A stretch of DNA of 29,224 nucleotides from Chrysochromulina tobinii (lineage: Eukaryota; Haptophyta; Prymnesiales; Chrysochromulinaceae). Location of the stretch: the NCBI GenBank assembly GCA_001275005.1, contig JWZX01002487.1, positions 1-29,224 on the forward strand. Direction: 5' to 3'. This document shows positions 7,719 to 27,393 of this stretch, piece by piece. Position 1 is the first letter of the stretch. Every line of letters begins with the position of its first letter. A program made the translations under genes and the position numbers. The notes below the pieces were generated by a model. It was not told where the DNA came from and ran no database searches. It worked only from the letters and a program-made list of their open reading frames with translations.

Positions 7719-9235
7719 GGCGCCGACCGTGACCATACCGTATCCAGCAACCTCACGCGAGTAGAGCGAGTGGCAATATCGTCCGTCCTCGCTGCCCCCC
7801 ACCGGTGCGATCAGCAGCTGCGGACTTTCCGTCTCGGCCATGAGCAGCAGGCCCGAGCGCTGACGCTCGATTCGAATGGCTCCCGCGTAGAGTGCGCCGG
7901 GCAGGCAGAAGCAGACCATCATGCCGGCGGTGCACCCGCTCACTTGGAACGCGAAGGCGAGGTTGCGCGTAACGTCGGCAGCGCAGCCGGCAAGCGCGAC
8001 ACCCACCGCCGTCACACCCACGTGCATGGGCGTGCTCAACGGCGGGACGGCGCACAAGTCGAGCAAGAGCGAGCGCAGCGGGAGCACTACTAACGGCAAC
8101 TTGAGAATGTTGACCAGCGCGAGCGCCGCGGATCCCGCGAGGACGAGCTGGCTGTCTCCAAATGCCGTGAGGATGTTGGGGACGGTGCGCGCGCCGAGCA
8201 GCATGTAGCCTGTCGTCCCCACGAGAGCGTAGATGACGCACGCAATCGCGATGGCCGTGTGCACGATTGCCGGCAGCATGGGGCGCTCGAGCGGCGGCAG
8301 CTCGTTCTGCAGGTCGTTGATGTTGAATTGCGAGCAGAAGGCGAGCGCGTGGATGGGAATGCCGAGGCTCCAACGAACCTGATGAGGGATGTCATCATAG
8401 GTCATCAGAGGTCATCAGAGGTCATCAGAGGTCATCAGAGTTCATCAGAGGTCATCAGAGGTCATCAGAGGTCATCAGAGGTCATCAGAGGTCATCAGAG
8501 GCCATCAGAGGAATGGCGAGGCTCCAACGAACCGAAGGTGGGAGCACAACGAACATGATGAGGGATGTCATCAGAGGTCATCAGAGGTCATCCGAGGCTT
8601 CAACGAACCGAAGGCGGGAGCATAACGGCGTATGTATCGTCGACGTGTTGGGGATCGATGTGCTCGCGGTTCTGGGCAGTGAGGCACCCCTGCACGGCTA
8701 GGCCGATGATGCATCCGACCGAGAAGAGGATGGCGAGCACGCTCGCAGACGAGAGGAAGCGCAGCGCGTGCAGTTGCTTGGGCAGGCACAAGGGCACCGC
8801 ACCGAGCGTGATGATCGCCGTCACGCGCTCGCGCGAGATGTTGATCCCGACAGCCTCGACTGCCAGCATCTCGATCAGGTCGACGACACAGATCAGGATC
8901 TGGACGACTGCGCCGACCAGCAGCGCCAGCAATGACCAAAGGACGAGCTGCCGACCGCTTCTGCCGTAGACGCGCTCACCAAGATCGGCGTACGAGCTGG
9001 CGTGCATCCGACTCGATGCGCTCGCAATGAAGCGCATCGACGCGCCCGAGAGATAGGCAAAGAAGCAGAGGATGACTAGGCCTGGGATGAGGCCCGTATA
9101 GGAGAATGAGATCGGAATAGAGAGGACGCCGGTGCCGACCGTGGTGGCGATCAGGTTGATGCACGCCGCCCGTGAACGCGACGGCGCGTCCGGCTGCTGT
9201 TCCTTGATCCCCGATAAGAGCGGCTCTTCCTTCAT
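7677..9235 (-). CDS. AAAP amino-acid transporter, two exons (442 aa)
   Basis: An amino acid/auxin permease family carrier, SLC38-like, predicted to move neutral amino acids across the plasma or a vacuolar membrane. Exon 1 is 9235-8609 and exon 2 is 8378-7677 on the minus strand, joined in phase 0 (...LPPS|VRWSLGIP...). The N-terminal block NLIATTVGTGVLSIPISFSY matches the family's first helix (G-G-LSLP). About 11 hydrophobic segments follow, including LVLWSLLALLVGAVVQILICVVD and MLPAIVHTAIAIACVIYALVGTTGYMLLG. Total length is normal for the family. The start at 9235 (MKEEPLLSG) gives a short cytosolic tail, as usual. The intron is repeat-filled and described separately. A 68-bp relative of the first-helix coding sequence lies upstream at 9668-9735. 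Confidence 0.85.
8379..8608 (-). other. Intron of AAAP gene, minisatellite type
   Basis: 230 bases, GTTCGTTG...CCCTCATCAG on the minus strand. The intron opens with GTTCGTTGAAGCCTCGG, which matches the opening of exon 2 (GTTCGTTGGAGCCTCGG) at 16 of 17 bases. A third copy of the exon-end/exon-start junction lies inside at about 8512-8560. The rest is mostly 12 decamers at 8391-8510. Retention would give a stop three codons in. Confidence 0.85.
8391..8510 (-). repeat. 10-bp minisatellite, 12 units, intronic
   Basis: Twelve head-to-tail decamers. In the gene's sense orientation the unit is CTCTGATGAC, with single-base variants at the edges (one CTCTGATGGC). It is wholly inside the AAAP intron. 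Confidence 0.97.
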
Positions 9236-9876
9236 TGTGTGTGCGGGCGCGCGCGCGTCCTCTCACACGTGCGAACGCGCGAACGAGTGTGAGCGAGCGA
9301 CGCGCATTCTCATCACAGCAATGCGTTGCGATCTCTGTGCGATCTCACGTGGTCGTATTGCGGGTCGTTTAACTTCGTTTGTCAGTTCAACGTTACTTCT
9401 GACGTTTCACTCGCGCAACACAGCAACAATCGACTCGGACAAGTGTTGAAGTGTACCGGTACAATTGAAGTGTCGTGCCAAAGTGCCCGCGGCTCGGCGG
9501 ATTCCAAGCAGCTGTTAGCAGCTGGCTTCAACACTAAACCAGAGCGTGCGCGCGCGCCCGCGAGAGGTGCCCAAGTTCTGGACCTCTGAAGTACCTCGAG
9601 ACGTCGAGGAAGTCGAAAATCAGTCAAGACCGGTTACACCGGGTACCGGTACCGTACAAACTTCGTTCCTGGGATGAGGCCCGTGAAGGAGATTGAGATG
9701 GGAAGAGAGAGGACGCCGGTGCCGACCGTGGTGGCTCCGAAATCCCCCGAGATTGCGAACCTCATCAAAGACTTCGTGGCGCTGCATCGCGGGAGCGCCG
9801 CGGCTTGGTGAGAGGGGATCCGCGCGAGGAGGAGGAGACGCGCGGCGGGAGTGGTGGATCACGGCGGTGACCCATC
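9236..9876. other. Intergenic stretch between AAAP and PDZ genes
   Basis: It presumably holds both divergent promoters. It contains GC alternation near 9245-9260, two TACCGGTA palindromes (about 9454 and 9649) and the 68-bp transporter fragment at 9668-9735. A plus-strand frame from ATG 9698 to 9811 encodes 37 residues and ends at a GTGAGA that resembles a donor site. I could not join it in frame to the PDZ gene, so it is not called. Confidence 0.5.
9668..9735 (-). pseudogene. Fragment of an AAAP transporter first helix
   Basis: This 68-bp stretch matches 9082-9149 at 63 of 68 positions without gaps. On the minus strand it reads TTVGTGVLSLPISISFTGLI. All three amino-acid changes are conservative (Ile to Leu, Phe to Ile, Tyr to Phe), which suggests descent from a functional paralogue rather than free drift. 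Nothing of the transporter is visible on either side. Confidence 0.8.
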
Positions 9877-12800
9877 ATGCCGGGAGGGCAGTCCAAGATG
9901 CCCCCCAAGCCAACTACCAAGCTACTGACGGCGATGGAGAACCCAAACGTCATCCCAGAGCCGCCGCGGGCGCGAATCGGTGAGACCCTTGGCGTTGATG
10001 AGCTGGAAAAGTACGTGGCCCGTTTGCAGTCGCTGCTCTCGCAGCTGCACCTTTCATACGAGTATTTGACGGCCGAGAATGAGGAACTGCGCCTCGCGCT
10101 CTCTCCGGGCATTGTGCCCGATCCTATTCGCATCACGATCCTCATCGACGAGGCGACGGCACGCATGTCCGAGATGGAGCTGCAGGCCACGGACGACCCC
10201 GTGGCCATAGCGAAGGCCTTCTGCGCACGGCACGGCATAAAAGGCGAGCGCGCGCGCGAAGTGCGCGTCAGCGCCGAGCGTGCCGTCAGCACGCGCAAGG
10301 CGACGCGTGCCACCGCCGAGGCGGTGAAGAAGGGCACTCCGGGCATGGCCTTGAGCCCCTTGAGCTCCCGCGCGAGCCGCGCCGCGGATGTGGCGCCGCC
10401 GCCGCTCGCGCCGACAGTCAGCTTCGATGATCTTGTTGGCAAGGCCTCCGCGGGCGGCTCTGCCAACGGCTCTGCCCGCGCGTCCAGCGCTGCGAAGGCG
10501 TCGTCGGCCCCGTTTGAGGCGAAGGCGTCGTCGGCCCCGTTTGAGGCGCGGTTCGACGACGGGTTTGCGGCGAGCTTCGGCGACGGCTTCGACGCTGTCG
10601 CTTCAAAGGGCGCGTCGCTGGCGACACAGCGTCCTGCCAGCGGGGGCGCTGCGCCTGCATCGTCGGCCCCATTCGAGGCGCGTTTTGACGAGGGGTTTGC
10701 GGCGAGCTTTGGCGATGCCGTTGACTTCGGCACCCCCCTTGGCGCTGTGTCGGGCACCCCAAACGGCGCTGTTTCGGGCACCCCAAACGGCGCTGTGTCG
10801 GTCACCCCCAACGGGGTTGGGTCGCAGGCGATCCGGCATCCGGCCAACGGGGCCGCAGCGCGCACGCCCGGCACGGCGGGAGGCGGCGCGAACGGTGGTG
10901 TCCAAGGCGGTGCCCAAGGCGGTCTCCATGGCTTCGGCGGCGCGACCGGGCATGCCAACGGCTGCGATTCGAGCACTGGCTTCGAGGCCGCGTTCCTTCA
11001 CAGTCCCGGCGGCTTCCTTCACAGTCCCGGCGCCTTCGCGGCGGCCTTCGAGCCGTCGCGTGCCAGCGGCTTCGAGCCGGCCTTTGAGCCGTCGCCGTTC
11101 GCACCCACAGCAGCAGCGGCGGCGGCGGCAGCGGCCTTCTCTCCCCTTTTCGACGCGCCTCCCGCGATGATGGCCGACTTTGGCGCTGTGTCGGGCATCC
11201 CAAATGGCGCTGTGTCGGACGCGCCTCCCGCGATGATGGCCGACTTTGGCGCTGTGTCGGGCACCCCACAAGGCGCTGTGTCGGGCGCGCCTCCCGCGAT
11301 GATGGCTGACTTTGGCGCTGTGTCGGGCGCTGGCTTCGGCGCCGACTTTGGCGCCCCTCCCACCGGCATGTCGGGCGCTGTGTCGGGCGCCTCTGCGGGC
11401 TCGTCGATGGCGTTCGGTACGCCGCCCGGCCCGTCGCCTGGCCGTAGGCTGAGCCGCCAGGACTCCGGCTCCAGGCTGCTCGCGGGCTCGGGTCCGCCGA
11501 CGGTTGGGGGCGATCGGCAGGATTCCGAGGCGTTCGACGCGTTTGACGAAGCGGAGATTTCGGGAGATCTCTTGGACGAGGCGGGATCGGCCGAGATCGG
11601 CGGCTTCGGCGCGGTCGACCTCTCGTTCGATGATTTCGGAAACGACTTTGGGGAGATCGAGGTGGAGTGGAAGGAGGCTGGCGCGCTCAAGCTCGACGAC
11701 GAGGGCAGCCGCACGCTTGGGGTGGGCGCCGTCGTGGGCGCCGCCTACAGCTACGCCGCGCCGCCGCCCGCGTCGGACATGAGGACGGGCATGGGGGCAG
11801 CCCCCTCGGGTCCGACACGCATTCTGATCCGGATCATCTCAATGGCCAAAGGGCTCGGCATGACCCTCGCAAGGCCGGCGCCCGGGCAGCCCGAGGTCTT
11901 GCGTGTGCGGGCGATCAAGGCAGGCAGTGCCGCGGACGAGTCGGGTGGGCCTCGCCGGAGCACATCCCTCTGATTGCCTCTGATTGCATGCTGATGGCCT
12001 CCCTCATTGCATGCTGATGGCCTCCCTCATTGCATGCAGGGATGCGGGCCGGCGATCGGCTGCTCAAGGTCAACGGCCATCCGGTCAAATCGTCCGCAGA
12101 TGTGCGTCGGCTGCTCAATCCCGCCGAGCCCAACACGGTGCTGGTCGAGCGGCTTGATCGGGTGGAGCCGAGCGGGCCGGTGGAGGCGGCGGCGGCAGCG
12201 GCGATGGCGACAGCGGCGGCGACGGCGGCGGCGGCGGCCGAGCGCGGCGCCGCAGCCGCGGGCGCGCTGGGGAGCTTCGCGCCGGCCCTCGAGCACCCGG
12301 CGGTGACGAAACCCGAGCGCCCGATGGTGACGAAACCCGAGCACGAGGTGGTGACGAAACCCGAGCACGAGACGGTGACGAAACCCGAGCACGAGATGGA
12401 GATTGCCGCCCTCCGCGCCACGCTTCGTCAGCAGATCGACGCCGAGATTCGCGCCGAGATTCGCGCCGAGATTCGCGCCGAGGTGCATGCCGAGGCGCTG
12501 GCGGAGGTGCGGGCAGAGGCGCTCGCCGCGCAGGCGTTTGCAGACACGGGGATGGAGGTGCCCACGGCGGCGTCTTCGATGGTCTCGACGCCTCCCTCGA
12601 TGGGTCACATGCCGCCCGCAGCCCTACCGCTGGATATCTTTGGAGGTGGAGGCGCCGTCGTGGGCGGTGGAGGCGCCGTCGTGGGCGGTGGAGGCGCCGT
12701 CGTGGGCGGTGGAGGCGCCGTCGTGGGCGGTGGAGGCGCCCTACCGGCTGATCTGTTCGCCGCGCCTTCGGATATGTTCGCTGCGCCATCAGCTATGTTC

Positions 12801-13018
12801 GCTGCGCCTTCGGATATGTTCGCTGCGCCAGCGGAGGCGCCAGCAGGGGCGCGGGCGGAGGTGAGGGCGGAGGTGAGGGCAGAGTTGAGAGCAGAAGTGA
12901 GGGCGGAGGTGCGGGCGGAGGTGGAGAATGAGTTGCAGGCGCAGGTGGCGGCGCAGGTGGCGGCGCAGGTGGCGGCGCAGGTGGCGGCGCAGGTGGCGGC
13001 GCAGGTGGCCGCAGCGCA

Positions 13019-13106
<88 letters not shown>

Positions 13107-13196
13107 GAGGAGGAGGAGGAGGAGGAGGAGGAGGAGGAGCAGCAGCAGCCGCGGCAGCCGCAGCAGCCGCAGCAGTATAATCACCAACAAGTATAA
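9877..13196 (+). CDS. PDZ-domain protein with coiled coil and repeats, two exons (1074 aa)
   Basis: Exons are 9877-11944 and 12040-13196, joined in phase 1 (DES|G|MRAGDRL). Residues about 35-75 form a short coiled coil (LEKYVARLQSLLSQLHLSYEYL region). Residues 170-620 are low-complexity Ala/Gly/Ser/Phe sequence with tandem repeats (SSAPFEA, GAVSGTPN, and a 22-residue PPAMMADFGAVSG unit). Residues 645-728 form a PDZ domain: GLGMTL at 659-664 takes the carboxylate-loop place, then VLRVRAIKAGSAADES, then GMRAGDRLLKVNG. The second half has VTKPEHE repeats, helical (IRAE)n and (VRAE)n stretches, Gly/Val repeats, AQVA repeats, then Gln27-Glu12-Gln3. A scaffold role is likely from the PDZ plus coiled-coil layout; no partner is known. 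Splicing is essential: intron retention truncates the PDZ domain nine residues on. The start is the first ATG of the frame and is uncertain (a second is at 9898). Confidence 0.8.
11155..11336 (+). repeat. 66-bp in-frame repeat, 2.6 copies
   Basis: Units start at 11155, 11221 and 11287 (GCGCCTCCCGCGATGATGG...). They encode the PPAMMADFGAVSG units of the PDZ protein. A 24-bp GGCGCTGTGTCGGGCACCCC-type repeat upstream (about 10740-10815) shares part of the unit. Confidence 0.93.
11945..12039 (+). other. Intron of PDZ gene, minisatellite type
   Basis: 95 bases, GTGGGC...CATTGCATGCAG. It starts with a GC-rich piece weakly like the start of exon 2, then two CTCTGATTGC decamers, then a 23-bp unit TGCATGCTGATGGCCTCCC repeated to the acceptor. 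Three TGCATG hexamers are present. Splicing restores a complete PDZ domain, which is the main evidence for it. Confidence 0.9.
12303..12398 (+). repeat. 24-bp in-frame repeat, 4 copies
   Basis: Units start at 12303, 12327, 12351 and 12375, with core GTGACGAAACCCGAGC. They encode VTKPEHE-like octamers in the PDZ protein. Confidence 0.95.
12651..12734 (+). repeat. 21-bp in-frame repeat, 4 copies
   Basis: Four exact copies of a 21-mer (core GCCGTCGTGGGCGGTGGAGG) encode GAVVGGG heptamers in the PDZ protein, with partial units on both sides. Confidence 0.95.
13023..13148 (+). repeat. (CAG)27 (GAG)12 (CAG)3 coding tract
   Basis: Pure CAG codons run from 13023 to 13103, pure GAG codons from 13104 to 13139, then three CAG. 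They encode Gln27-Glu12-Gln3 near the C-terminus of the PDZ protein. The absence of CAA or GAA interruptions suggests recent slippage. Confidence 0.97.
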
Positions 13197-14761
13197 TCAC
13201 CAGTCCCATCAGCTATGGCGCTGTCGGCCGAGGTGGCGTGTGCGCCCTGAGCCCTCTGCTTCGGCCTGGACTGCATTGCATTGCATGTGAGTAAATGTTC
13301 TCCCTTGGGCTGGCTGGCTGGCGCCAGCCTTGTCCCAGAAGTGGCCTCGAGCAACCATGAAGCTAGTCGCGCTGGCTGCGCTCGGGTCCCTTCAAGCTGG
13401 GGCAAAAGAAGAGCTCAGTGAAGGACATGATCGGATGATGATGATGATGGCATGGAAATCCACACGTGGCACGCCACCTCGGACGCATGGAAGCGCATAG
13501 GAAGCATATGGGTCAAGATGGCACGCCGCCCCATGTGGCAGACGAGGAGCCGAGACGAGAGTGACGGTGCTCGCAAGTGTGAAGGCGGCAGAGCGCACTG
13601 TCGTGACGCGTCCATGAGACAGGCCACACAGGGGGAGGGTGTGATGTACATGTAGTAGCAGCATGCATGTATTTGGCAACATACGGGCTGGTTTGGTTAC
13701 GCTCTGGCTTTCAACGCTCACTCCGGCGCGGGCGAAGTTTCGCAACTTCGTGCACACACGAGGAGGAGGTGGTGGCGGTGACGGTGGTGGTGTGAGTATT
13801 CAGGGGGTGATTGGTTTTCAGTGTGACGACGGGCGTGTTGTCGTGTTCACAAGTAAGAAGAGCTATCTACTCTAACTGCACTAACGGTACTGCGGGAGAA
13901 CGTTACTAGGACGGTAGGTCCCTCACAGTACCACAGTTATACTCACGGTTTGCTACTGGAAGCCGTCTACCGCAGCTAGACGTCTTGCGTGGCTCAGATG
14001 CTTGCGCAGCGCCGCAGCCACGGGCGAGCTCGGCTGGATGTTTCGCCCGGCCTTTGCCGCTCAACAATTGGAGCGTCCACGAACTCAACCAGCGTCCAGC
14101 GGCTGGAGCACCTTTCACAGCTTGCCAGAAGCCTCATGAACACGGCCCGATGCGCCGACCGCAGAGCCGCGGCGATTCCAGGGAGAGTGGCGAGAGTCAC
14201 CGCACGCCGAGGTTAGGGAGCCGCACAGCCGCTCCTTCCGGCTCGAACGTCCCGCTCGCCGTTAGCTCGCCGTCGCACCACGCACCGTTGCGGTCGCCTA
14301 CAAGCGCGTTGCCGTGCCGAGCGTGGGCACGTGCGTGGTATTGCAGACAAATGTGACGCCGTCTAACAGAAAAATCGAAACCGAACCATCAAATAGGTTC
14401 CAAAAAAGGGCTCTGGTGAATGAAATGCATGCAACTTTGGCAGGCGCGCTCCGTGCACCAGCGTGTCCCCAGACGCTCATCTTCGGCCGACCGAAGGCCA
14501 CACACCGGCCCAAGGCAACGCACGCGTGAGCGCGGGCACTTACTCCCCCACCCCTCATATCACATTGGGGCCGGGAGGTGTGGTGAGCGCGGGGGGACCG
14601 CGATGAATCTGACGGAAAAAAAGGCAGACATGAAAGCGCTGGGGCGCGCACGACTTGTCATGACTTGACTTCTCTTGGCACGACGTGGTTCTCGTGCTGT
14701 CTACAGCCTCTACGTTGGCCCGCGCGAGCTGCGGCGCACTTCAATTCTTCAGCACGCTACC
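13197..14761. other. 1.6 kb intergenic stretch, no supported gene
   Basis: Several frames up to about 120 codons exist on both strands, but none shows a domain or a preferred composition. I note a (TGA/ATG)n run near 13436-13449, a small hairpin (CGAAGTT TCGC AACTTCG, 13733-13750), and a purine-rich GAGGAGGTGGTGG stretch near 13760. The last 100 bases (TCTTCAG shortly before the ATG) are presumably the U1-C 5' leader. Confidence 0.5.
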
Positions 14762-15172
14762 ATGCCACGATACTACTGCGAGTACTGCGACATCTCACTC
14801 ACCCATTCATCCGTGCCCGGCCGCAAGCAGCACCACTCCGGCCGCAAGCACATCATGAACTTTATCGAATACTGGGCTGCCTTTCAGGCAGCGGTGCCAC
14901 AACCGCAGGCAAGGGCGCCTGCACGCACGGGCCCGATGCCACCTCCGGGCCCTGTGCCACACGGGGCTGGCGCGCCGCGCCCTCCATCTGGGCCAATGCC
15001 ACCGATGCCTCCGATGATGTCAGGGATGCCGCCGGGCTATCGACCCGGCATGCCGCCGCCTCCGATGATGCCTGGGATGCCGCCGGGTGGCCCTCCGAGG
15101 CCAGGAATGCCGATGCCTCCTTACCCCATGCCTCCCGGATATCCACCTGCATATCCTCCGCCCCCGCGATGA
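14762..15172 (+). CDS. SNRPC: U1 small nuclear ribonucleoprotein C (136 aa)
   Basis: This is the U1 snRNP subunit that stabilises pairing between U1 snRNA and the 5' splice site. The N-terminus [17 protein letters not shown]...[14 protein letters not shown] carries the U1-C-type C2H2 zinc finger, with ligands Cys6, Cys9, His24 and His30, at the expected spacing. The C-terminal two thirds are Pro/Met/Gly-rich ([13 protein letters not shown]-like), also typical of U1-C. The ATG at 14762 is chosen because U1-C proteins begin with MP(K/R)(F/Y)YC directly; the frame is open 29 codons further upstream. No intron is visible. It converges on the coiled-coil gene. Its presence is notable beside genes whose introns have weak, exon-derived donor sites. 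Confidence 0.95.
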
Positions 15173-15385
15173 GCGCTAGTTTTACGGAACCAGTGTGCAT
15201 AAATCAGTCCGGGGCACAGTCTCATGACTCCTCCGGCGTGCTTTGTGTGTGCGCGCCGATCTGTGCAGTGCACCAAACTAGCACCAAACACAGTCTAGAA
15301 TGCGCTTGCGCGCGCGCTGTCGTTTTGTAGCATGTGAGAATAGGATACAATCTACCACTCAGGCCGGTCTAATGCTGAAAACACG

Positions 15386-18300
15386 TCATCTCGAAAACAG
15401 TGCCTCCAGATCGAAAGGGTTGTGGGCTCTGCCTCCGGCGCCACCCGCGCCGCCGGTCTGCTTCGGGGGCTTGGCCACCGGGCCGTGTTCATCGCGGAAC
15501 AGGTCACCCGGCCGAAGCACACCTTCGGCGGTGAACACTGCGGCGCCGCGGCTCGGGCTATTCGAGACCTGCTGGAGCAGCCTACGCGTGGCGGCGAGCT
15601 CGGCGAGCAAGAGGGGCAGCTGCACCCGCGCGTCGGCATCGCCCTTATCGGAGTACGCATCAATCTCTTTCTGGATGGTCTCGAGCTGACTGGAGTACGC
15701 ATCGCGCTCCTTCTGGGTCGCGTCGAGCTCTCTCCGCATGGCATCGAGCTGGCTCGCAAGGGCCTCCGAACGCCGACGTGCTCCCTCGGCTTCCAGCTGC
15801 ATCGCCTCGCGCTGGTCCGCATGCAGCCTCGCAAGCTGCATCTCACCGAGCGTTCTAGTCTCCTGAAGCTGCGCGTCGCGATATCCCTCTGCCAGCGAGG
15901 CTTGTCCGCCCCAATCCTTGGAGGAGGGCTTGCCTTCTGGACTAGTCTGCTGCTGAGCGTCTCCCTTGCCCTGCGCAAGCGCGGCGTGTCCAAACCTCCC
16001 TTGCTCCCCCTTGAAGGGCCTAGTGGGGGACGTGGCTCGAGGGCTGGTCTGTTGCTGCGCGTCGCTCGCCGGGCGTCGTATCGGCGAGGCTGGCTCGGTG
16101 TCCTTGGAGGCTCGCTCACGCTCGAGCGCCGTCTCGAGCGCCTCGATCTCATCAGTGAGCTGCGCCTCTCGCCTCTCGTACGTTTGCCTCTCGCGCACAA
16201 AGCTCTCCTGCAGGGCTCTGGTCGCTGCCTGATGTTGCTCCGTCAGACTCCGGAGCGCGTCCGCGTGCGCCGCGTCCTTCTGCGCTGCGACAGCGACGGC
16301 CCCGCTGCTACCTGCCCCACCCCCTCCCTCGCGCGCTTCCGCGAGCTGAGCGAGCAAGCGCGCCGCCTCCACCTGATGCGCCTGCTGCGCATCGACCAAG
16401 GCCAGCTTGGCGGCACGGCACTCGGCGCGCGCGTCCGCGAGGCTATTCTGCAGGTCCTTGCGGTCGACGAGCTGCTCGAGGAAGGCCTCGCGCTCGACAC
16501 TCAGCTGCGCCTCCATCGTGTGCCCCTGCTGCGTCAACTCGAGAGCGTGCCGTGCCGCTTGACGGTCAGCCACTTCCTGGAGCACACGACGGCTCGCGTC
16601 GCGCGCCGCGTTGGTCGCCTCGCGCTCCTTGGCAAGTGCACTCTCAAACGCTTCGCGCTCGGCGAGAAGTTGACGAGACTTGTCCTCAAGCGCGTCGGAG
16701 AGCCAATCGAGTTGCGACGAGAGCTTGGACGTCGCTGCAAAGGAGGCCTCACGCACGTGGTGCAGTGTGGCGCCGAAGTGCTCGCGCTCCTTTTCCATCC
16801 ACGCATCCGAGCGTCGTCGCTCCGCTTCGATCGCCTCTCGTTTGCTCACTTCGGCATGCGAGAGTGCCTCGCGAAGGGCGCCCGCCTCTTCGCCGCCCAA
16901 GGCCGCATAGTGGGCCGCCGCGCCGCGCATCGCCGCCACGTCGGCATCGGCGACGAGCAGCATGGCGCGCAGCGAGAAGACTGCGGACTGCTCCGAGAGG
17001 TATTGGGCGGACGCGAGCTCGAGGGCGCCCCTCGCCTCCGCCAGCTGCCGCTTGAGCGACTCATTCTGCCACTGCGCCTCCGCCTGCACTGTCTCGATGT
17101 GCTCGTCGGCGAGCGCCTTGGCCGCGCGGGCTATGTACTCCGCCTGCTCCAAGCGCGTCTCGTTCAGCGCGAGCGTCTTGGCCGCGGCCGCCGCCTTCGC
17201 CTCGCTCTCAGCGATCGCCTCAGCGAGCCGCTGCTCGCTCGCTCGCTCGCTCACCTCGAGCCTCGACTCGCTCTGATGGAGCTTCGACGAGAGCTCAGCA
17301 TTGGCCAAGCGCGCTTCTTGCAGGTAGGTGCGCGTGAGCGCCTCGGACTCGCTCGCCGCGGCCATGCCAACCTGCGCCTTGGTGGCCGCCGCCTCCGCCT
17401 CGGCCGTCGCTCGCGTCGCCTCCGCCACCGACAGCCTGGCGCGCTCCAGTTCATTCCGGCCCTCTTCCCGCTCCCGCTGCGCCGCATGCAGGCCTTCTTG
17501 TCGGGCCGCCTCGGCCACCGCGAGCAGCTCGTGCAGCTTCTCAATTTGCTGCGCATAGCTCCCTGAGACGCTCGCCGCAGCGGCCGCCGCTGCGATGCGC
17601 TCGGCTTGCAGGGCATCAGCATAGGCGCTCCGGTCGCGTTCCATCAATGCATGCACCTCAAGCCTCTCGGCCTCCAGCTCACTCCATGCGGCGGCGAGCG
17701 CCTTGTACGTGGCCTGCGTCGCTGCCTCGCAGTTGGCAAGCTCCAAGCGCGCCGCCGCCGCCTCGCGTGTGATGGCCGCAGCGTCCGCATCGAGCTGCAG
17801 TCGAGATCGCGCGAGCTCTGATTGCTCCTCAAAGAGGATCGCGCTCTCCGCCCCCAAACCGACGAGGGCCGCCTGCGCCGCGGCCGCCGTCCTGCGCTCC
17901 TCGAGCTCCCGCAGCAAGCTCTCACGCTCCGCCGCCAGCTCCGTGCGAGCGAGGCTCTTCCATTGCTCGAGCTCCGCCCGGCCCGCCTCTCGCTCCGCGC
18001 GCGCCGCCGCTCGCTCGTTCTTGAGCGCACGGCGCTCGCTGCTCTCATGCTCCTCGAAGGCGCTCTCTCTAGCCTTCAAGTCGGCCGATCGCCTCTCAAA
18101 GTCGCTCAGATCCGCCGCCATGGCCTGCATGGCCGCCTGCGCCTCCTTGGCCGTTACACGCGCCGCCTCGAGCTCGGGCCGCATGGACGCATTGACCTCG
18201 GCGGCGGCGGCGGCGGCGGCGGCGGCTATGGCGGCCTCTCCACGCGCCCGTGTGGCTGCTGCGTCCATCTTGGCCATGTCCGCCTCCATCTTCACCGCGC

Positions 18301-19243: not shown

Positions 19244-19329
19244 AAACGTCTCTTCATGCCCGGAGAAAACGCCAGGGCAGGATCACCACATCGGCGGAGC
19301 CTGCCCGCGGCGGGCGGGCGGCTGGACCA

Positions 19330-21323
19330 ATGCTGGCACCATCCTTCTCCGACTCGGCCTCTGAGGCGGTGGGCTTCGAATCGTGCTGGCGCGGAGAGAT
19401 CAGCACGAAAGTGGGCCAAGCGCAGACCGACCCGCTCGAGCAGGCGCACCAGCGCACGCAGCACCCGAAGCTCAAGGACATGGAGATGGTGACCGATCCG
19501 GTGGAGATGATCGGGGCGGTGCCCATGGTACGCTCGGGCTTCCAGAAGCTCAAGGAGCTGGACGCCTTCCTCGAGCAGTGCACGCCTATGCTCGAGGCGC
19601 AGCTGCACCGCAACCTCAACACGCGCGCCTTTGAAGGCCATGAGGTCTCGTGGGATGAGCAGTATGACCAGGTGAGCTGCCTGCACGCGCTCAAGCACAA
19701 GGGCACGCGTCCGGCGAGTTCGCCCGAAGGGTGCACCGCGGTCGTGTGGAATGCCCCCGGCACCGTCGTCGCCGCCGCATACGGCGCGCTCGATCGCAAC
19801 GACTGGCAACGCACACCTTCGATGCTGTGCACTTGGTCCGTCTTCCGCCGCTCTCTGGACCCCAGCAAGGCCGACGTGGCGCTCGAGCTGTCCGACTGCC
19901 TCACGTGCCTCGCCTTCCACCCGGAGGACCCGGCGCTCCTCGCGGGTGGCGCGTACAACGGCGACGTACTCCTGTGGAGGCTCGGTGAGAAAGGCGACCC
20001 TTTGGTCGGCCGATCGGTGCTCACCAATTTCACGCACCACGAGCCGGTGCAGCAGCTGCAGTGGACGCGCGACCCGCAGCGCGGCAAGGCGTCCGGCGGC
20101 TACGTGCTCGTCTCCGTCGCCGCCGACGGCAAGATGCTCGTCTGGTCACCTTCCGATGGGCTCAAGGCCCCGGTCGGGGGCTTCCACCTCCTGAGCACCA
20201 ACGGGCGCGGCGGCGGCGGCGGCGGCGGCGGCCAGCCCAAGGAAGGCAAGGGGATGCTCGAGGGCGCGTCCGGGCTCTCGTTCAACGCGGAGGACCCGAC
20301 GACCTTCGTGGTCGCCCTCGAGGCTGGGCAGCTGCTCAAAGGCTCCCTCCTCGCCCACGAGCTGCGCACCGTCCAGTCGATCCTGAGGGAGCATGCGGAG
20401 CTGCCCTGGTCGGCGAGCGCGGCGGCGCTGCTCACGCGCGTGCCAGGCGCGCAGTACCATCGGCTCAAGAGCAAGGTGTGGAACAGCAGGGCCGATCCTC
20501 ATACGCGCGCGAGCGCCCTTTCCGTCCTTGCATGCTGATGCCCCCCCCTCCTTGCATGCTGATGGCCCCCACATTGCATGCTGAAACCCCCTCATTGCAT
20601 GCAGGTGGAGAAGCAGGCGATCCTCACACGCGAGCGCGAGGTGCTGCCCGCGCACGTGTATGCGGCCGCCCCAGAGCCGCGCACACTCTTCGCCTCTCCC
20701 ATACAGTTCGGGTACGCGGCGCACACAGGGCCCGTCTACGGCCTCGCTTACTCGCCATTCCACCGCAACGTCATCCTGACGGCGGCAACGGACTCCTCGC
20801 TCCGGTTGTACAACCAGCTGCAGCCCGCCCCCTTTTACGTCACCGAGCCCTCGTCGGTGCCACTGCTGGCGGCGCAATGGTCTCCCGCGCGCCCGTGTGT
20901 GTTCGCGGTGGGCGCGGCCGACGGCTCGCTCTTCATCTATGATCTCAAGCGCTCGAAAGCGAAGCCCGAAGTCACGCTCAAGGTGTGAACAGCGACCAGT
21001 CGGCCCGTTACGTCCTCTCTCTTGCGTTCCAACCCTCATGGCCTGTCGAGTGCCCCTCTCCTCGCATGCAGGTGACCAGCGACAAGTCGGCCGTTACATC
21101 TCTGGCCTTCAACCCTCGCTCGCCCGAGCTCCTCGCGACCGCCGACGCGCAGGGTTCCGTCAAGATCTGGCGCCTCTCGACGGCGCTCTCGGAGGTGAGG
21201 CCACGCGAGCTTGAGACGCTCCGTCGCATGGCCTCGCGCGGCCTCGGCGTCGAGCCGAGCGCCGCGGAGGCTGAGCAGGAGGAGACCGAGGGGTACGAGG
21301 AGGGATTCGAGGAGGACGACTGA
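19330..21323 (+). CDS. DYNC2I2: Dynein-2 intermediate chain, WDR34-like, three exons (591 aa)
   Basis: A WD-repeat intermediate chain of the retrograde intraflagellar-transport dynein (WDR34/FAP133 type), needed for building cilia. Exons are 19330-20475, 20605-20982 and 21072-21323, all joined in phase 0 (RLKSK|VEKQ and VTLK|VTSDKSA). The N-terminal part has GFESCWRGEIS and QAQTD-like motifs before the propeller. Family blocks are AVVWNAPGTVVAAAYGALD.NDW, CLAFHPEDPALLAGGAYNGDV, YVLVSVAADGKMLVW, GPVYGLAYSPFHRNVILTAATDSSLRLY, AAQWSPARPCVFAVGAADG and LLATADAQGSVKIWRLS, closely following animal WDR34. The acidic tail (EEGFEEDD) is extra. A Gly run encoded by GGC repeats interrupts a propeller loop near residue 295. 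Splicing is needed to complete the C-terminal blades. Confidence 0.92.
20476..20604 (+). other. Intron 1 of WDR34, exon duplication plus TGCATG repeats
   Basis: 129 bases, GTGTGG...CATTGCATGCAG. Its first 40 bases pair with the first 36 of exon 2 at about 31 positions, allowing two 2-base insertions (shared cores GCAGG and CGATCCTCA). The remainder is three diverged TTGCATGCTGATGGCC units plus a final TTGCATGCAG, the same unit as in the PDZ-gene intron. Confidence 0.9.
20983..21071 (+). other. Intron 2 of WDR34, begins with a copy of exon 3
   Basis: 89 bases, GTGTGA...CTCGCATGCAG. About 55 bases at the start align with the start of exon 3 with few changes and small gaps: AACAGCGACCAGTCGGCC against ACCAGCGACAAGTCGGCC, then GTTACGTC against GTTACATC and CCAACCCTCA against TCAACCCTCG. 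There is no decamer array. Removing it joins LK to VTSDKSAVTSLAF, matching the family. Confidence 0.88.
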
Positions 21324-21586
21324 ATATTAGATAACCACAGAGAGCGTCGCCTCACAGTCTCGAGTGATCATCCTCGTCCCGAGAGCGAGAACGAGATGGT
21401 CGCGCGCCTTGGTCCCTTGTTTGAGGCACAGTGAGTGTCGTCGAGTCCTTCAAAGTCTTACTAGTAAATTAGCGAGCCCACACTCCGCGGGTTCAGGTCT
21501 GAAGACTTGAAAATGCCGCGAATTCTTCCAAGTCGGCGGGATCTCGCGATTCCATATAGGATTCTTTGGACGGACACACCGTCGGC

Positions 21587-22387
21587 ATGGAGCGCCTATT
21601 CCTCCTATTGCTCGCGACCAGCGCGCACGCCTTGATTCAAAGCGCACGGGTGCAACGTGCATCGCAGCTTCGGGCGCAGCAGGCCTCCATGAAGGACGAC
21701 CAGCTCACACTCAGCTCCGAGCGGCAGCAGCAGCAGCACCAAGATGGGCCGGTGGCGTGGCGATGGATTTCGGGCGACGGGCGGAGGAACTCGTGGATGG
21801 ATGTGCTCAGCCACACGCACCTCGCCGAGCAAACCCGCAACAACGTCGAGGTGCACGTTGCTTGTGACTCGGCTGTGCAGGGGAGGTTTGTGGTGTTCGC
21901 CACAGTGGTGTGCGTCATTGCCAAGGGCCAGGCGGGGCGCTACTTCTACTCGCGGCTCATCGAGGAGAAGCGCCAGTACCCAGTGTTACAGACGAGGCTC
22001 CTCCGTGAGGTGCAGCTCTCGCTCGATACCGCCGAGGCGCTCAAGCTGGAGGACGTCGCCGTCGCCCAAGTCCACTGCGATTCGAACACCGACCCTGGGG
22101 CCAAGAGCACTGAGCACACGCGCATGCTGACAGGGTACATCCAGTCGATGGGATGTATGTCCTCTGCCCCGCAGCTCCACCACCTGCGCCGCGGCGCGAT
22201 CCGAACACGAAACGCCCCCCGTCCCGACCCTCGCTTTGACACAGCGGCTGCTCTTGACATTTGTGCAGATGAATACATGGTCAAACCGGAGGCGTGGGCC
22301 ACCATGGTGGCCGACCGCCACTCGCGCGGATTCGTGCGCCACTCGCGCGCCATCCGCCGTCGGCGGGAACCTCAATATGCTGCCTAG
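21587..22387 (+). CDS. DUF458 (YkuK-like) RNase H-fold protein with presequence, two exons (228 aa)
   Basis: Exons are 21587-22154 and 22269-22387, joined in phase 1 (IQSMG|Y|EYMVKPEAW). The domain matches the DUF458/YkuK group with a ribonuclease H-like fold: VEVHVACDSAVQGRFVVFATV (Asp94), YFYSRLIEE..YPVLQTRLLREVQLSLDTAEAL, VAQVHCDSNTDPGAKSTEH (Asp165) and YMVKPEAWATMVADRHSRG (Asp205). The three aspartates are candidate catalytic residues. The ATG at 21587 is chosen over one seven codons upstream because it starts a signal peptide (MERLFLLLLATSAHA) followed by a basic Ser/Gln stretch without acids. That is the bipartite layout expected for plastid import in algae with secondary plastids. YkuK relatives are mostly bacterial, so a plastid or transferred origin is possible. 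The biochemical role is unknown. Confidence 0.8.
   Translation: MERLFLLLLATSAHALIQSARVQRASQLRAQQASMKDDQLTLSSERQQQQHQDGPVAWRWISGDGRRNSWMDVLSHTHLAEQTRNNVEVHVACDSAVQGRFVVFATVVCVIAKGQAGRYFYSRLIEEKRQYPVLQTRLLREVQLSLDTAEALKLEDVAVAQVHCDSNTDPGAKSTEHTRMLTGYIQSMGCMSSAPQLHHLRRGAIRTRNAPRPDPRFDTAAALDICADEYMVKPEAWATMVADRHSRGFVRHSRAIRRRREPQYAA
22155..22268 (+). other. Ordinary intron of DUF458 gene
   Basis: 114 bases, GTATGT...TTTGTGCAG, with near-consensus ends and a pyrimidine-containing acceptor tract. It has no tandem repeats and no copy of the flanking exon. Its length is a multiple of three and it has no in-frame stop, so retention would insert 38 residues inside the catalytic domain. Splicing restores GY before the conserved KPEAW block. 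Confidence 0.85.
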
Positions 22388-22961
22388 CGCCGCATCGAGC
22401 CCTCGCGCACGAGCGTGAAACGACTTCGGATGTGAATTTAGCCAACATCGATCGTCGTCGTTCAAGTGTGTACGTTTAGCGACTATATATTTTGGAGCCT
22501 TATATGGCGACAAAGCCATATCTGGCCAAAATACACATCCGCCGTCGGCCGCAACATCGTATGATATTTTCCTATCGGCGGTTCGGTTCGGTGCACGCTT
22601 ATCGTAGTGCCCCGCTGAAACGTATAGTCGTAGTACGTAGAGGCGGCCGTTTTTCCTGTCGGCCGGCGGACCATGATCCATGTGTACCTCTCTAAGAGTG
22701 AGACGTGGCCGAAGGCAGGCCATGTCTTGCAGCCGCCCGGCGCGGCAGCCGGAGCGTCAGCCGCAATCCGACTGTCAATTTGGCGGAGCACCCGGATGTA
22801 CCGTGAAGGCTGCTGTGGCATGGATTATAGTGGGAAGATGGCGCGGCTCATCGACGAAACCCCGTGAAAGCACGTACTGTATTTCAGATAAGTTTAGAAT
22901 TGACTTGACTTGTCTCTTCGCGATTGGATCTTCACGCGAGCGTGTGCTCGTCACCTCAACT
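22388..22961. other. AT-richer intergenic stretch
   Basis: No gene is supported. An imperfect inverted repeat lies at 22488-22533. The frame of the next gene is open from 22680, but that part has no hydrophobic or domain character. Confidence 0.5.
22488..22533. repeat. 46-bp imperfect inverted repeat
   Basis: TATTTTGG...ATATGGC on the left pairs with GCCATAT...CCAAAATA on the right around GACAAA, with a short unpaired bulge in each arm. Confidence 0.8.
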
Positions 22962-23996
22962 ATGTTGGTCTTGCACTTCATCTCGGTGGCCGTGGGGCGC
23001 GGCAGCGGCGGCGGCGCGCGCGCGCCCTTTGTTGTGTCCGGCGCTACCTCATGGAGCACGTGCTCCTCGCCCCGCATGCTAGCCCGCATGACTCTGTCAG
23101 ATCAGCCTGGCAATTACGTCGCGCCGTATAGCTCAGCCCTCGGCGTTTCCACTGCGGCGATCTTGTGTAGCGAGCTCATCTGCCTGCCAGGTGCGGCCAG
23201 CACGGCGCTGGCTGGCCGCGCTGCAGCTTGCACGAGCCTGCCGTTGATATGCTGCGCCTTCCACATCTTGCGCACGGCGGCTATGAGCGGACCAGTGCTC
23301 TTGAGGCAGCCGCAGCAGCAGCGCCTCAACATTGGGCTTGCACTCTCGAGCTTGGTGGCGGTTCTACCTGTGTTCGCGCCTCTACCTGTCATGCCAGTCG
23401 TCATTGCTCGTGGAGGTAGCGCTCTGCTTTGTTTCGAGGTGTGGTCAAAAGGCCTCGTCGGCGGAAAAGCCGGCGACCCGTTTGCAGAGGTGATCGGCGT
23501 GGTACGCGAGGTGGTCGCTGCAATGCTGCGCGCGGTCGAGCTGCTGACCAAGGGAGGTGCGCCCGCTGTGTTCTCCATGGTGGCTCTTGGTCACTGTGGC
23601 CTGATCGGTGCCGCGATGGCGGCGCCCGCGGCGACGGCAGCCGCGTGGTGGCCCGCCGCCGCACCGGGCCTGGGCGGTGCACGCGTCGCGGCGTCAACGG
23701 CGCTGCTCTCGGCATGCTCGGCAGTGCTGCTTGGTGACGTGGCGGCGAACCGCCAAGCGGGCGGCACGGGAGACGGGCTGCGCCCGTGGCGGTGGCTCAA
23801 CCGTGCGTTGCTGCTGTCCTCGGCGGCGCACGTAGCCGTGCAGTGCGCCGCCCTTGCCGCCTCGAGGGGCGGTGTGGGACTGGCGCCGCTGGCGATCGCG
23901 TCGCGCGCGATGGTGCTCGCAACGATCGCCGCGCAGGCTCTGGTGCTCGGCACCGCGGTCCTGTGTGCGACGCAGGACGCTCTGTTCTTCAAATGA
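22962..23996 (+). CDS. Polytopic membrane protein, unknown family (344 aa)
   Basis: I recognise no family. From ATG 22962 it begins with a short hydrophobic stretch (MLVLHFISVAV) and a Gly/Arg-rich piece ending in ARAPF, possibly a targeting sequence. About six to eight hydrophobic segments follow, including LNIGLALSSLVAVLPVFAPL, VFSMVALGHCGLIGAAM, ASTALLSACSAVLLGDVA, ALLLSSAAHVAVQCAALA and a final MVLATIAAQALVLGTAVL. A small amphipathic part (EVIGVVREVVAAMLRAVELL) lies in the middle. Alanine content is very high, as in other GC-rich genes here. The frame is open upstream to 22680, but that part is Arg/Cys-rich and unlike a targeting sequence. It ends 236 bases before the Sfi1-like gene on the same strand. 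Confidence 0.65.
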   Translation: MLVLHFISVAVGRGSGGGARAPFVVSGATSWSTCSSPRMLARMTLSDQPGNYVAPYSSALGVSTAAILCSELICLPGAASTALAGRAAACTSLPLICCAFHILRTAAMSGPVLLRQPQQQRLNIGLALSSLVAVLPVFAPLPVMPVVIARGGSALLCFEVWSKGLVGGKAGDPFAEVIGVVREVVAAMLRAVELLTKGGAPAVFSMVALGHCGLIGAAMAAPAATAAAWWPAAAPGLGGARVAASTALLSACSAVLLGDVAANRQAGGTGDGLRPWRWLNRALLLSSAAHVAVQCAALAASRGGVGLAPLAIASRAMVLATIAAQALVLGTAVLCATQDALFFK

Positions 23997-24232
23997 ACGC
24001 AAAGACCTCTGAGGGACTATGTGGAGGAGTGGGAGCAGGTCATGGGTGTTGGAAGCCACATGATGCAGCAATGCGGGGCAATTTTTGTAATCGATCTGAA
24101 ATACAATCTGTGCGCCTCCCACGCACGCCTTTTCGGGGCTTGTGGGTGTGTGTCTGGCCGAGAGGGCCCTGTGTGACGAACGAACGAACGAACGTGAACA
24201 AACGAAGTGCTCGACACAGCGCCTTTCGACTT

Positions 24233-27200
24233 ATGTCGACTCAAGTAGTGATGCCTACGCCGGAGCGCTGGCGCGCTCAGAACCGGTACGTGAGGACCGC
24301 CGAGAACGTGATCGTAGGACGCGAGCCTCTTTCCGTCGCCGCGCCGCGTAGCAGTCCCCGCCGCACACAGTGGTCGCCGGAGGCGGCGGCACAGGACGCA
24401 TACTTGCAGGAGGCGCTCCGGCGCAACCTGGGGTTCGCATCGCTGCGCATCAGCATCCAGACGGGCCTGCGTGACGAGATCCGTCGGGCCTTGCACGCCT
24501 GGTTCGAGGCGGCTGGCGCACGCGCGCTCCAGCAGCAGCTGCTCGATGTGGCTGAGCACCACCTGAGCGTGGAGACGTTGACGCGAGGCCTTGCGCGCAT
24601 GCGCTCCGAGGCGGCGCTGATGCGTCTGCGTTGGGCGCGCGCGCTGCAACATTGGCGGCTCGCATCGCTCGTGCGCGGCCTCGTCTGCTGGAATACGAAG
24701 CTCAAGGTGGCGCGCCGCAGGGCCTTTGAGCGGCAGCGGCGGAAGGCACAGCAGGAACAGACACTGGTGATGCTGCACGCGCGGCTGCTGCTGTGGAACT
24801 GGCGGCGGCTGCACGGCGCCGTGCGCGTCGCGCTCCGGGGCTGCGCCGCCGCTGTCCAAACCGCGCGCTCCTCGCGTGCTCTTCGACTCGCTTGGGGAAC
24901 GTGGATGGGCTTCAGGGCACTCGAGGCGAGGCTCGAGCGCCGTATCGGGCACGTGATGGAGCGTGCTCTTCGACTCGCTTGGGGAACGTGGATGGACTTC
25001 CGGGCACTCGCGGCGAGGCTCGAGCGCCGTATCGGGCACGTGATGGAGCGTGTGCGATCCAAGCGGCTGGGACGCGGGCTGCGTCGGTGGCGCCGGGCGG
25101 CAAGCGTCCGCTCGGTCGCGACTGCTCGTCTCCGCCTCGCACTGACCCATATGCGCCACGCGCCCCTTCTCTGGGCACTGCGCTCGTGGCGGCGCGAGGC
25201 TCGCCTCCGCTTGCTCATGCACGTCTACAAGCGGCGAGGGGTGCGTCGCTGGGCGGCGGCCACCACGCTGAGGCGCGCGAGGCATCGTCTCGGCACCCTC
25301 GCTGGGCGCGCCTGGCTCTCTTTTCGTCAGCGGCGGGTGAGCGACGCCCTCGATCGCTGGATGTCCTTGGCGCGGCCGTTTGGGCAAAGGAACCGTCTGG
25401 TGCGGATCGCCCTTGGGCGGCTCATGCACCGACGTCAATGGATGGCTCTCTCGACCTGGCGCGTCGCGGTGGGTCTACGGGGGGCCGCCGCACGCGGGCG
25501 CCAAGCTGCGTGCAAGGGGCAGCTCGCCGGTCTGCTGCGCGCCTGGGTACGAAGCGGACGGGACGCCCTTGAGCGTGCGAGGCTGTTCACACTGAGCGTG
25601 CACAGTGCGCGCGCGTCGCTGCTCGACCGCTCGGTGCGCCTGAGCTGGGGCTACTGGGCACGTGCGGTCGCACCTGCGGCGGAGCTGCAGAGACGAGGCC
25701 GGCGCTTCATTTCGATGGGCCGCTGGCGGCTCGTGGCGCGGGCCTTCCACAGCTGGGCAGACGAGGCGTACGTGGATTGCCATGGATGGCGTGTCTGATG
25801 GCGTCTGAGTGCCTCGGATGACGTCTGATGGCGTCTGAGTGCCTCGGACGACGTCTGATTGCCTCTGAGGACCTCGGATGACGTCTGATGGCGTCTGAGT
25901 GCCTCGGATGACGTCTGATTGCCTCTAAGGACCTCGGATGACGTCTGATTGCTGCCCTCATCAGGCACGCTCGGATTTCGATCGCCGAGCTCATCGAGGG
26001 GTGGGAGGCGCGCCACCACGGCGCTCTGCGACGGAGCCTATTGCGTTGGTGGACTGCAGCGGGGAGCGTCGGGCGCCATCGGATGAGCGTCGCGGCCCTC
26101 CGCTCCCTCCTTCTCTCCGGAGCGCTCGGCACCTGGTGCGCGCGCCGTGGTGAGCGCTCGGCACGACGCGAGGCCGCCATCGAGCTCGCCGCCGCGCTCA
26201 ACACGGCGCGCGAGCGGCTGCGCGTGCTCCGCCTCGGCTTCGCGATCGACGCGTGGCTGGCGCAGCACGAGGCCGAGAGCGCCCGCCGCGCCCGCCTCGA
26301 CGGGCGCGCACTCTTACTCTGGTCGGAGCGAGCCCGCGTCGCGATCATCGCGGCGTGGCGCACATGGCGCACGCGCGCGCACGCGTCGTCGCGGGCGAAC
26401 CGATGGCTCACCCTCGCGGACGGCCACCGCATCCTCCAAGTTTGGATCGCTTCTGATGGCCTCTGATGGCCTCTGATGGCCACTGATGGCCACTGATGGC
26501 CACTGATGGCCACTGATGACCTCTGACGGCCACTGATGGTCACTGATGGCCACTGATGGCCTCTGATGACCTCTGACGGCCACTGATCACCTCTGATCAC
26601 CTCTGACGGCCACCGCATCCTGCAGGCTCTCGGCAGCGCCACCCATCGCTGGCGCACCCTCCTGCTCAACACGGCGCTCGCGCATCGACGCGCGCTCAAC
26701 ACGGCGCTCGTCGCCGGCCGCCCGTCGCCCTCACCCCCCTTGGTGCCTCCTCTCGCGCGCGCGCCGCCGGCACTCGCGCTCAACACGGCGCTACCCGACG
26801 ACTCGCGCTCGCCGCCGCCCCGCTCACCGCCGCCCACGCCACGCGAGTACCACTACTGCGGCGGCGCCCTCCCCACCAACCCCGTGTGGTCGCGCCAGCC
26901 GCGTCCGCTGCCGCCGTGGCGCCCACCCGATCTGAGCGGCGGAGATTTGCTCGACCGGCTCGTTGTGATGCACCAGCTGCTCGGGCAGCCCTCGCTCTCC
27001 CCCCCCGCGCTTTCGCGCGCCGCCGCGCTCACCGCCGCCGGCCGCGGAGGGGGAGGGGAGGGGGAGGAGGAGGGGGGATTGGCAGAGGGAGCTGTCGGTG
27101 CGCCGGCGGCCTTTCGGCCGGTCGCAGCGCCGCTGGCCCCTCGACTCGCCCAGTTTCGTCATGAATCAGTTTCGTCATCAGCCGCGCCGCTGGCCCCTCG

Positions 27201-27393
27201 ACTCGCCCAGTTTCGTCATGAATCAGTTTCGTCATCAGCCGCGCCGCTGGCCCCTCGACTCGCGCCACCTCAAGCTGCACCCGCGCAGTACCAGCCCGCG
27301 CGCAGCGTCGACTCGCTCCGCGCGTCGTTTGCGGGCGAACTACTCTTGCACACTGCCGCCATGACCGCCACCCAGCGGCAGCACGCCCTGTGA
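24233..27393 (+). CDS. Sfi1-like Trp-repeat protein, three exons (925 aa)
   Basis: Exons are 24233-25767, 25965-26439 and 26626-27393, joined in phases 2 and 0 (DEA|HARISIAEL and RILQ|ALGSATHRW). Residues about 85-720 are Arg/Leu/Trp-rich helical repeats with a Trp roughly every 25-35 residues (LRRWRRAAS, LWALRSWRREA, LDRWMSLA, LGTWCARR, IAAWRTWR). This resembles the centrin-binding repeats of Sfi1, so a centriole or basal-body filament is the best guess. The last 200 residues are Pro/Ala-rich with LNTAL and APLAPRLAQFRHESV repeats. One 29-residue repeat is a direct 87-bp duplication (24878-25051). The ATG at 24233 (MSTQVVMPTPERW) is chosen because the open frame further upstream overlaps the end of the preceding gene. 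Both introns are of the decamer type. Family assignment is moderate because Trp spacing is irregular. Confidence 0.72.
24878..25051 (+). repeat. 87-bp in-frame tandem duplication
   Basis: Units at 24878-24964 and 24965-25051 differ at only a few bases. They encode 29-residue helices (ALRLAWGTWM...ERRIGHVMER) of the Sfi1-like protein, adding exactly one structural repeat. Confidence 0.96.
25768..25964 (+). other. Intron 1 of Sfi1-like gene, decamer type
   Basis: 197 bases, GTACGT...CCCTCATCAG. The opening GTACGTGGATT resembles the opening of exon 2 (GCACGCTCGGATT). The body is about 16 decamers built from GTCTGATGGC, GTCTGAGTGC, CTCGGATGAC and GTCTGATTGC. It ends with the same CCCTCATCAG as the AAAP intron. 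Removal joins two Trp-repeat segments in frame. Confidence 0.85.
26440..26625 (+). other. Intron 2 of Sfi1-like gene, decamer type
   Basis: 186 bases, GTTTGG...CCTGCAG. The 21 bases before the donor (26419-26439) and the 21 before the exon 3 boundary (26605-26625) agree at 19 positions (GACGGCCACCGCATCCT core), so the intron sits exactly between matching points of a tandem duplication. The body is about 15 decamers, CTCTGATGGC or CACTGATGGC. Confidence 0.88.
27127..27263 (+). repeat. 57-bp in-frame repeat, 2.4 copies
   Basis: Units start at 27127, 27184 and 27241. They encode 19-residue APLAPRLAQFRHESVSSSA repeats near the C-terminus of the Sfi1-like protein. Each full unit contains TTTCGTCAT twice. 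Confidence 0.95.

Follow-up and report, generated by a model that had tools for sequence, protein, structure and literature searches.

Decamer minisatellite introns in Chrysochromulina tobinii as a candidate introner-like family of gained spliceosomal introns

Introners are the closest described relatives of the introns reported here, which are built from tandem copies of a 10-bp unit (the decamer) in unrelated genes of the haptophyte Chrysochromulina tobinii. They were detected in a window of 29,224 nucleotides (positions 1 to 29,224 of contig JWZX01002487.1), within genes for an amino acid transporter (AAAP), a PDZ protein, a WD40-like protein and an Sfi1-like protein. Introners have target-site duplications of 3–9 bp, with evidence of duplication in 49 of 130 judgeable families and terminal inverted repeats in 72 of 177 families; in those of a Chrysochromulina metagenome-assembled genome the duplications measure 4 bp and the 5′ site is carried by the introner (PMC9860276). 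Introns attributed to staggered double-strand breaks in Daphnia include 33 repeats of 4–12 bp shared with one adjacent exon (PMC4202315). Direct repeats of 4–30 bp (mean 11.4 bp, 71–100% similar) were described near the borders of all 213 introns examined, of many kinds (PMC11782384).

The decamer introns are like introners in that many similar introns occur in unrelated genes, in transcript orientation, with signs of recent gain and with splice sites split between the element and the target duplication (PMC9860276, PMC3443670). They differ in their short-period tandem body, in a duplication that is variable and mostly 11–35 bp rather than 3–9 bp (PMC9860276), and in that one repeat can give either the donor or the acceptor side. 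The Daphnia introns (PMC4202315) resemble them in action but have shorter repeats than those found here, where a single genome-wide family provides the filler; introns newly formed by double-strand-break repair have heterogeneous filler, in contrast to the one filler family, plus a second family, found here. As in tandem genomic duplication of AGGT segments, a duplicated exon copy gives donor and acceptor and precise splicing is possible, but a non-exonic array lies between the copies, and the decamer introns do not consist of duplicated exon only (PMC3443670). Repeats at both borders, interpreted as an insertion scar, are common to the introns of PMC11782384, which come from all classes and, unlike the decamer introns, are not reported to share a tandem body. 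Because such repeats have been reported, a border repeat alone is not new, and the claim made here is carried by swapped-flank and random-interval controls. Among the matches listed in the open-licence literature, none dealt with short-period tandem introners or with introns made of minisatellites. Judged from sequence, the decamer introns are probably an introner-like family of gained spliceosomal introns with a minisatellite body.

Duplication scars and intron gain

The genome was searched over 53.15 Mb in 2,253 contigs. A word of two decamer units, with at most one mismatch, gave at least 4,912 + 5,023 matches (at least 9,935), compared with 1 + 2 for the reversed word. The acceptor word CCCTCATCAG was found in 1,399 + 1,490 copies (2,889), compared with 16 + 19 (35) for its reversed control. 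An unbiased sample was composed of the window and the first 10 kb of 20 contigs spaced evenly by contig number (229,224 bp, G+C 63%). Forty arrays of ≥20 bp were detected in it, against 2 in one Markov-shuffled copy; 20 of the 40 are ≥30 bp, which extrapolates to about 4,600 in the genome. Similar introns thus occur in many copies at non-homologous positions, as do introners. Neither of two exact words was found in viral contigs, and the one exact word searched in a prokaryote genome collection was not found there.

A duplication scar around the arrays was overlooked in the original prediction, which was made from the window alone. The flank-to-flank match score reaches ≥14 in 26 of the 60 testable arrays of ≥30 bp and in 0.4% of 3,492 pairs with swapped flanks. 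A direct duplication brackets 33 of 62 arrays, compared with 128 of 2,480 random intervals from the same loci (5.2%). Non-repeat sequence of ≥10 bp is present in 28 of the 33 duplications, with lengths of 11–35 bp and one exception of 55 bp that includes decayed units. A direct repeat of the adjacent exon at the opposite end, the mark of introns formed by double-strand-break repair, accompanies 28 of the 62 arrays. Two further copies were seen by eye: AGGTGCACTATTC at locus L051, with a score of 13 that is under the cut-off, and a 33-bp copy at L060. The duplicated stretch was established as exon only where the gene was readable. Units of exon copy plus array are chained at L024, L029, L038 and in the transporter intron.

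The arrays interrupt conserved genes. Locus L040 encodes DNA polymerase delta and contains five introns, whose removal gives a frame of 1,123 residues without a stop. All five junctions align gap-free with the yeast chain (2.5e-209) and four of the five with the human chain (3.8e-229). Intron 1 of this gene carries a 22-bp duplication and has no CATCAG end; in intron 3 a duplication of about 23 bp, with two mismatches between its copies, was seen by eye. In Pfam, the spliced transporter matches Aa_trans (E 6.4e-42, residues 23–381) with a domain that crosses the junction, and the spliced PDZ stretch matches PDZ_6 (E 5.1e-13), whereas the first-exon fragment alone gave no match. Domains also run unbroken across array introns for Sugar_tr (6.4e-88), Tudor-knot (5.6e-08) and Galactosyl_T (1.7e-19). 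Including Aa_trans, PDZ and DNA polymerase delta, such continuity was found in six genes.

Relatives of two of these genes read through the intron sites. For the transporter, these are P0017 (93% identical, with a query coverage of 63% and a longest contig of 14,966 bp) and P0016 (78%). For DNA polymerase delta, P0030 (80%, contig of 9,751 bp) reads through introns 1–4, P0029 (82%) through introns 1–3 and P0028 (82%, contig of 2,590 bp) through all five. At the protein level the introns are thus absent from close relatives, as in recently gained introners, and for these two genes parsimony favours gain over loss. The proteins of P0017, P0029 and P0030 end elsewhere, for example after VPNIL, which suggests that they have introns of their own at other positions and that intron turnover is fast. 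It is very unlikely that the decamer introns are old introns in which a common minisatellite built up through gene conversion or drift and was kept in sense for splicing as branch-point arrays. Every unit does contain a CTGAY word, and single unit-like words were seen by eye in some introns that have no long array, but an old age would leave unexplained both the flanking duplications and the read-through in relatives that are 78–93% identical.

A second, non-tandem intron family was represented by GCATGCAAGYGCTCAYSACGGCGCC, which gave 628 + 669 = 1,297 matches in the genome with at most one mismatch and none in the control. Five matches to this family, some reached through a looser word, were examined in place. 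Those at L036 (7745–7820, minus strand) and L041 (3331–3423, diverged) are single-copy introns with a 17–21 bp duplication by eye and an open spliced frame. No clear duplication was seen by eye at L053, and the copies at L052 and L056 lie at the locus edge and were not judgeable; the scar is therefore present in two of three judgeable copies. Although two cases are few, the same scar in a non-tandem family speaks for insertion as its cause and for the decamer introns as the tandem representative of a set.

The scar could also be produced by tandem genomic duplication of AGGT exon segments, in which a decamer then grew by slippage and no mobile element took part. AG/GT (the slash marks the junction) lies within several duplicated copies (L010, L011, L017, L029 and L049), and this explanation also draws on the chained units at L024, L029 and L038, on the many coding tandem duplications of the window and on the 5% background in the loci. 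It is nevertheless quite unlikely: slippage of different exons would not give one decamer and a terminal CCCTCATCAG at thousands of places, the array is not exon-derived in simple cases, and slippage cannot produce the second family with the same scar at L036 and L041.

Orientation and splice signals

The coding strand was assigned by codon-usage segmentation trained on the sample itself, in which short exons are missed. In same-strand gaps of ≤450 bp the unit core was found 69 times in sense and never in antisense in the 229-kb sample. Where same-strand gaps are longer the same-to-opposite-strand ratio is 6:4, and within coding stretches it is 25:10; 9 cores lie in contig ends. Another 47 lie between genes on opposite strands; two tracts (L036 and L037) account for about 43 of these, share the strand of the gene upstream and are probably unrecognised parts of it. 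Judged from the coding strand of the flanks, sample arrays are sense in 24 cases, antisense in 2 (both weak 20-bp matches) and undecided in 14; for array-anchored loci the counts are 30, 1 and 25. Neighbouring sites gave a similar picture among the matches listed (the first 100 places per search, counted as sites rather than independent introns): all 76 pairs of CCCTCATCAG words <1 kb apart share a strand, and with several words pooled, 150 of 155 consecutive sites no more than 1 kb apart agree, against a ratio of 5:13 beyond 6 kb. An ordinary minisatellite would be expected to have no bias of orientation or toward genes, which is not what was found. The original prediction had held that arrays equally common outside introns, or in both orientations inside them, would speak against the family; on the sample the family withstood this test.

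Stops are present in all three frames of 53 of 60 sense arrays, and all three frames are open in 41 of 60 antisense arrays. A sense array in an exon must therefore be spliced to be tolerated. At L002 (1499–1538) an antisense array and a 25-bp duplication, 57 bp in all, lie in frame within an open frame of 972 residues and are translated as MLQSIGR-NQSSSEVISGHQ-MLQSIGR. Because sense arrays carry stops, antisense arrays stay open and the L002 array is coding, the sense bias can be explained by survival after insertion, and active choice of strand is not needed. The original prediction had offered either a mobile or seeded repeat selected for an RNA-level function or an intron-generating process; the latter is the best reading, and RNA-level selection is not required for the orientation. 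At L052 (about 64–115), antisense 21-bp units likewise lie in an open frame, with a sense array about 100 bp downstream of them; these units are possibly coding.

Splice signals are shared between array and exon in three arrangements. In the first, the first exon copy starts with GT or GC, which serves as donor, and the array end CATCAG serves as acceptor (transporter intron and L051). In the second, the donor is supplied by the array start GTGATG, and AG stands at the end of the exon copy (intron 1 of DNA polymerase delta). In the third, an exon copy with AG/GT supplies both sites (L010 and L049). The bases that follow the 2,889 genomic copies of CCCTCATCAG are GT in 1,827, GC in 401, GA or GG in 187 and non-G in 474. 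These counts fit a donor supplied by the duplicated copy, and a general preference for AG/GT sites could be part of their source. Array starts read AG/GTGATG in 30 cases, compared with AG/ATGATG in 2 and AG/TTGATG in 0; the plain unit AG/CTGATG occurs in 20, and several of these array-start sites are chained copies. Co-option of one splice site of the target, as in introners, is thus seen in single genes and in the genome counts.

A first automatic test of the seams, which gave 24 of 49 in sense and 28 of 49 in antisense, was confounded by the arrays and was replaced by a repeat-trimmed recount. With GT donors alone, a seamless splice is possible for 11 scars in sense and 3 on the reverse complement. 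Loci L060 (an automatic splice in the wrong frame), L058, L054 and L017 (frames unchecked against homologues) were not used as splice evidence. RNA folding was calculated for 7 stretches, each taken from an array intron in whole or in part; the z-scores of −1.6 to +2.7 are as a group no better than those of shuffles. A stem-based function is therefore unsupported, and the stable folds of fungal introner-like elements (PMC3443670) were not found.

Introns of the window

The introns of the window were defined by GT..AG ends and a frame open after splicing; their coordinates are collected in Table 1. The original prediction named four introns in three genes, and all four have these properties and lie where it placed them. 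Its claim that the decamer is always in sense held for each of them, as did that of an acceptor common to two: CCCTCATCAG ends the transporter intron and Sfi1-like intron 1. The claim of one 10-bp unit common to all four was borne out in part. Arrays were detected by Tandem Repeats Finder (TRF), and the PDZ intron consists mainly of a 23-bp variant, TTGCATGCTGATGGCCTCCCTCA. A fifth intron of the same type, in the WD40-like gene, had been overlooked; it has a variant unit word in common with the PDZ intron.

Table 1. Coordinates of decamer-type introns and their parts in the window
Feature	Position	Strand	Description
Transporter (AAAP, Aa_trans) intron	8379..8608	−	230 bp; two decamer arrays with a copy of exon sequence between them
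Transporter intron junctions			donor TCG/GTTCGTTG; acceptor CCCTCATCAG/GTTCGTTG
Transporter intron, main decamer array	8391..8511	−	CTCTGATGAC on the transcript strand, 12 copies
Transporter intron, short decamer array	8567..8597	−	3 copies
Transporter exon copy	8356..8378	−	23 bp, GTTCGTTGGAGCCTCGGCATTCC; directly after the acceptor
Transporter intronic copy of GTTCGTTGGAGCCTCGGCATTCC	8510..8532	−	exon sequence, 1 mismatch
Transporter first copy of exon sequence	8593..8608	−	opening two bases are the GT donor of the intron
PDZ intron	11945..12039	+	95 bp, within the PDZ domain; decamer and 23-bp variant units TTGCATGCTGATGGCCTCCCTCA; acceptor TTGCATGCAG
WD40-like intron	20476..20604	+	22–24-bp variant units; acceptor TTGCATGCAG/GTGGAG; open spliced frame
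Sfi1-like intron 1	25768..25964	+	30/60-bp higher-order decamer array; acceptor CCCTCATCAG
Sfi1-like intron 2	26440..26625	+	decamer array of about 16 copies; 3′ end, including the acceptor, carries the second copy of exon sequence
Sfi1-like intron 2, exon copy ahead of donor	26419..26435	+	GACGGCCACCGCATCCT, 17 bp
Sfi1-like intron 2, second copy of GACGGCCACCGCATCCT	26605..26621	+	17 bp, at the 3′ end of the intron

A flanking duplication was not seen by eye at the PDZ intron, and none exceeding background was found at Sfi1-like intron 1. An Rfam search of the window gave no match. Further tandem repeats lie within long open frames of the window at 10492–10548, 11152–11328, 12645–12740, 13011–13175, 24874–25052, 27127–27263 and 28992–29080; their unit lengths are 27, 66, 21, 3, 87, 57 and 27/9 bp, respectively, all multiples of three. 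Such coding repeats suggest a genome in which short tandem duplications form readily. The pentamer (TTGAC)n is recurrent in non-coding stretches of sample loci on 7 contigs and in gaps in L033, L034, L038 and L047, which are perhaps 3′ untranslated regions or intergenic.

Possible mechanism and significance

In the proposed sequence of events, a decamer array, often ending in CTGATTGCCTCCCTCATCAG, would enter an exon and leave a host stretch of mostly 11–35 bp on both sides. A sense array would add stops in all frames, and the allele would persist only if the array were spliced. Splice signals would come from both partners, as exon GT or GC with array CATCAG, as array GTGATG with exon AG, or as exon AG/GT for both sites. 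Excision of the array and one exon copy would restore the frame, as judged at the protein level in conserved genes. CTGAY matches a branch-point consensus, and its presence in each unit may allow the array to aid splicing. Older copies would decay, and units of exon copy plus array may duplicate further inside the intron.

At the DNA level, repair of a staggered break, or template switching, may have copied filler from an existing array. This route is favoured because the length of the duplication varies, and it falls just short of being probable; a transposase or reverse-transcriptase route is conceivable and somewhat doubtful. We tentatively propose that the minisatellite could act as a self-spreading intron factory, in which decamer arrays are copied either way round into exon breaks during repair and the exon duplication can supply half of the splice signals. 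Sense copies would give rise to introns by the thousands and antisense copies to in-frame peptides, and no transposase would be needed.

A conventional mobile element, either a DNA transposon or a short retroposon, would instead insert non-autonomous copies of the form CTGATGA...TCATCAG that carry the array, with target-site duplication. Copies are many, full copies start with CTGATGA and end with TCATCAG (which could form an inverted terminal repeat of 7 bp), DNA transposons have been linked to the introners of other eukaryotes (PMC9860276), and insertion blind to orientation would be expected to leave antisense in-frame copies such as L002 and possibly L052. This origin is unlikely, since the duplication is variable and mostly 11–35 bp, compared with 3–9 bp for introners (PMC9860276), the inverted ends are a by-product of the repeat word, and DNA polymerase delta intron 1 and similar copies have no CATCAG end.

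Several results weigh against the introner-like reading. No duplication above threshold was found at 29 of 62 arrays, Sfi1-like intron 1 included, and 5 of the 33 duplications consist of repeat sequence only. A score of ≥14 is also reached by 5% of random intervals drawn from these loci, so the formation of short tandem duplications is a general property of this genome, and border repeats, at looser similarity, were described in all introns examined in PMC11782384. The phase in which the array starts after the duplicated copy looks biased, yet not constant, by eye. The case for gain over loss is based on two genes and on relatives compared at the protein level; P0028 could be a transcript, and a one-residue gap in human DNA polymerase delta adjoins the fourth junction. 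All splices are predicted from reading frame, domains and homology. In the repeat-trimmed recount, 15 of the 28 scars permit a seamless GT/GC..AG splice in sense and 9 of the 28 on the reverse complement, which is only modestly in favour, so splicing is not taken to be usually seamless. No seamless splice site is present at L038 or L058, and opposite-strand neighbours within 1 kb are real at C127, C1054, C107 and C307. After the recount, confidence in the introner-like reading and in the transposase-free account was lowered slightly, and that in two of the rival explanations was raised slightly.

How introns originate has long been an unanswered question, and genomes caught in the act of gaining them are few. 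Thousands of candidate gains seem to be present in this one, many with readable scars; they come from two unrelated element families and also affect a deeply conserved gene, DNA polymerase delta. The genome thereby allows the shares of element and gene in the splice signal, the lifetime of the scar, and break repair versus insertion by an enzyme to be measured. The contrasting outcomes of sense and antisense arrays provide a simple and testable account of one-way introns.

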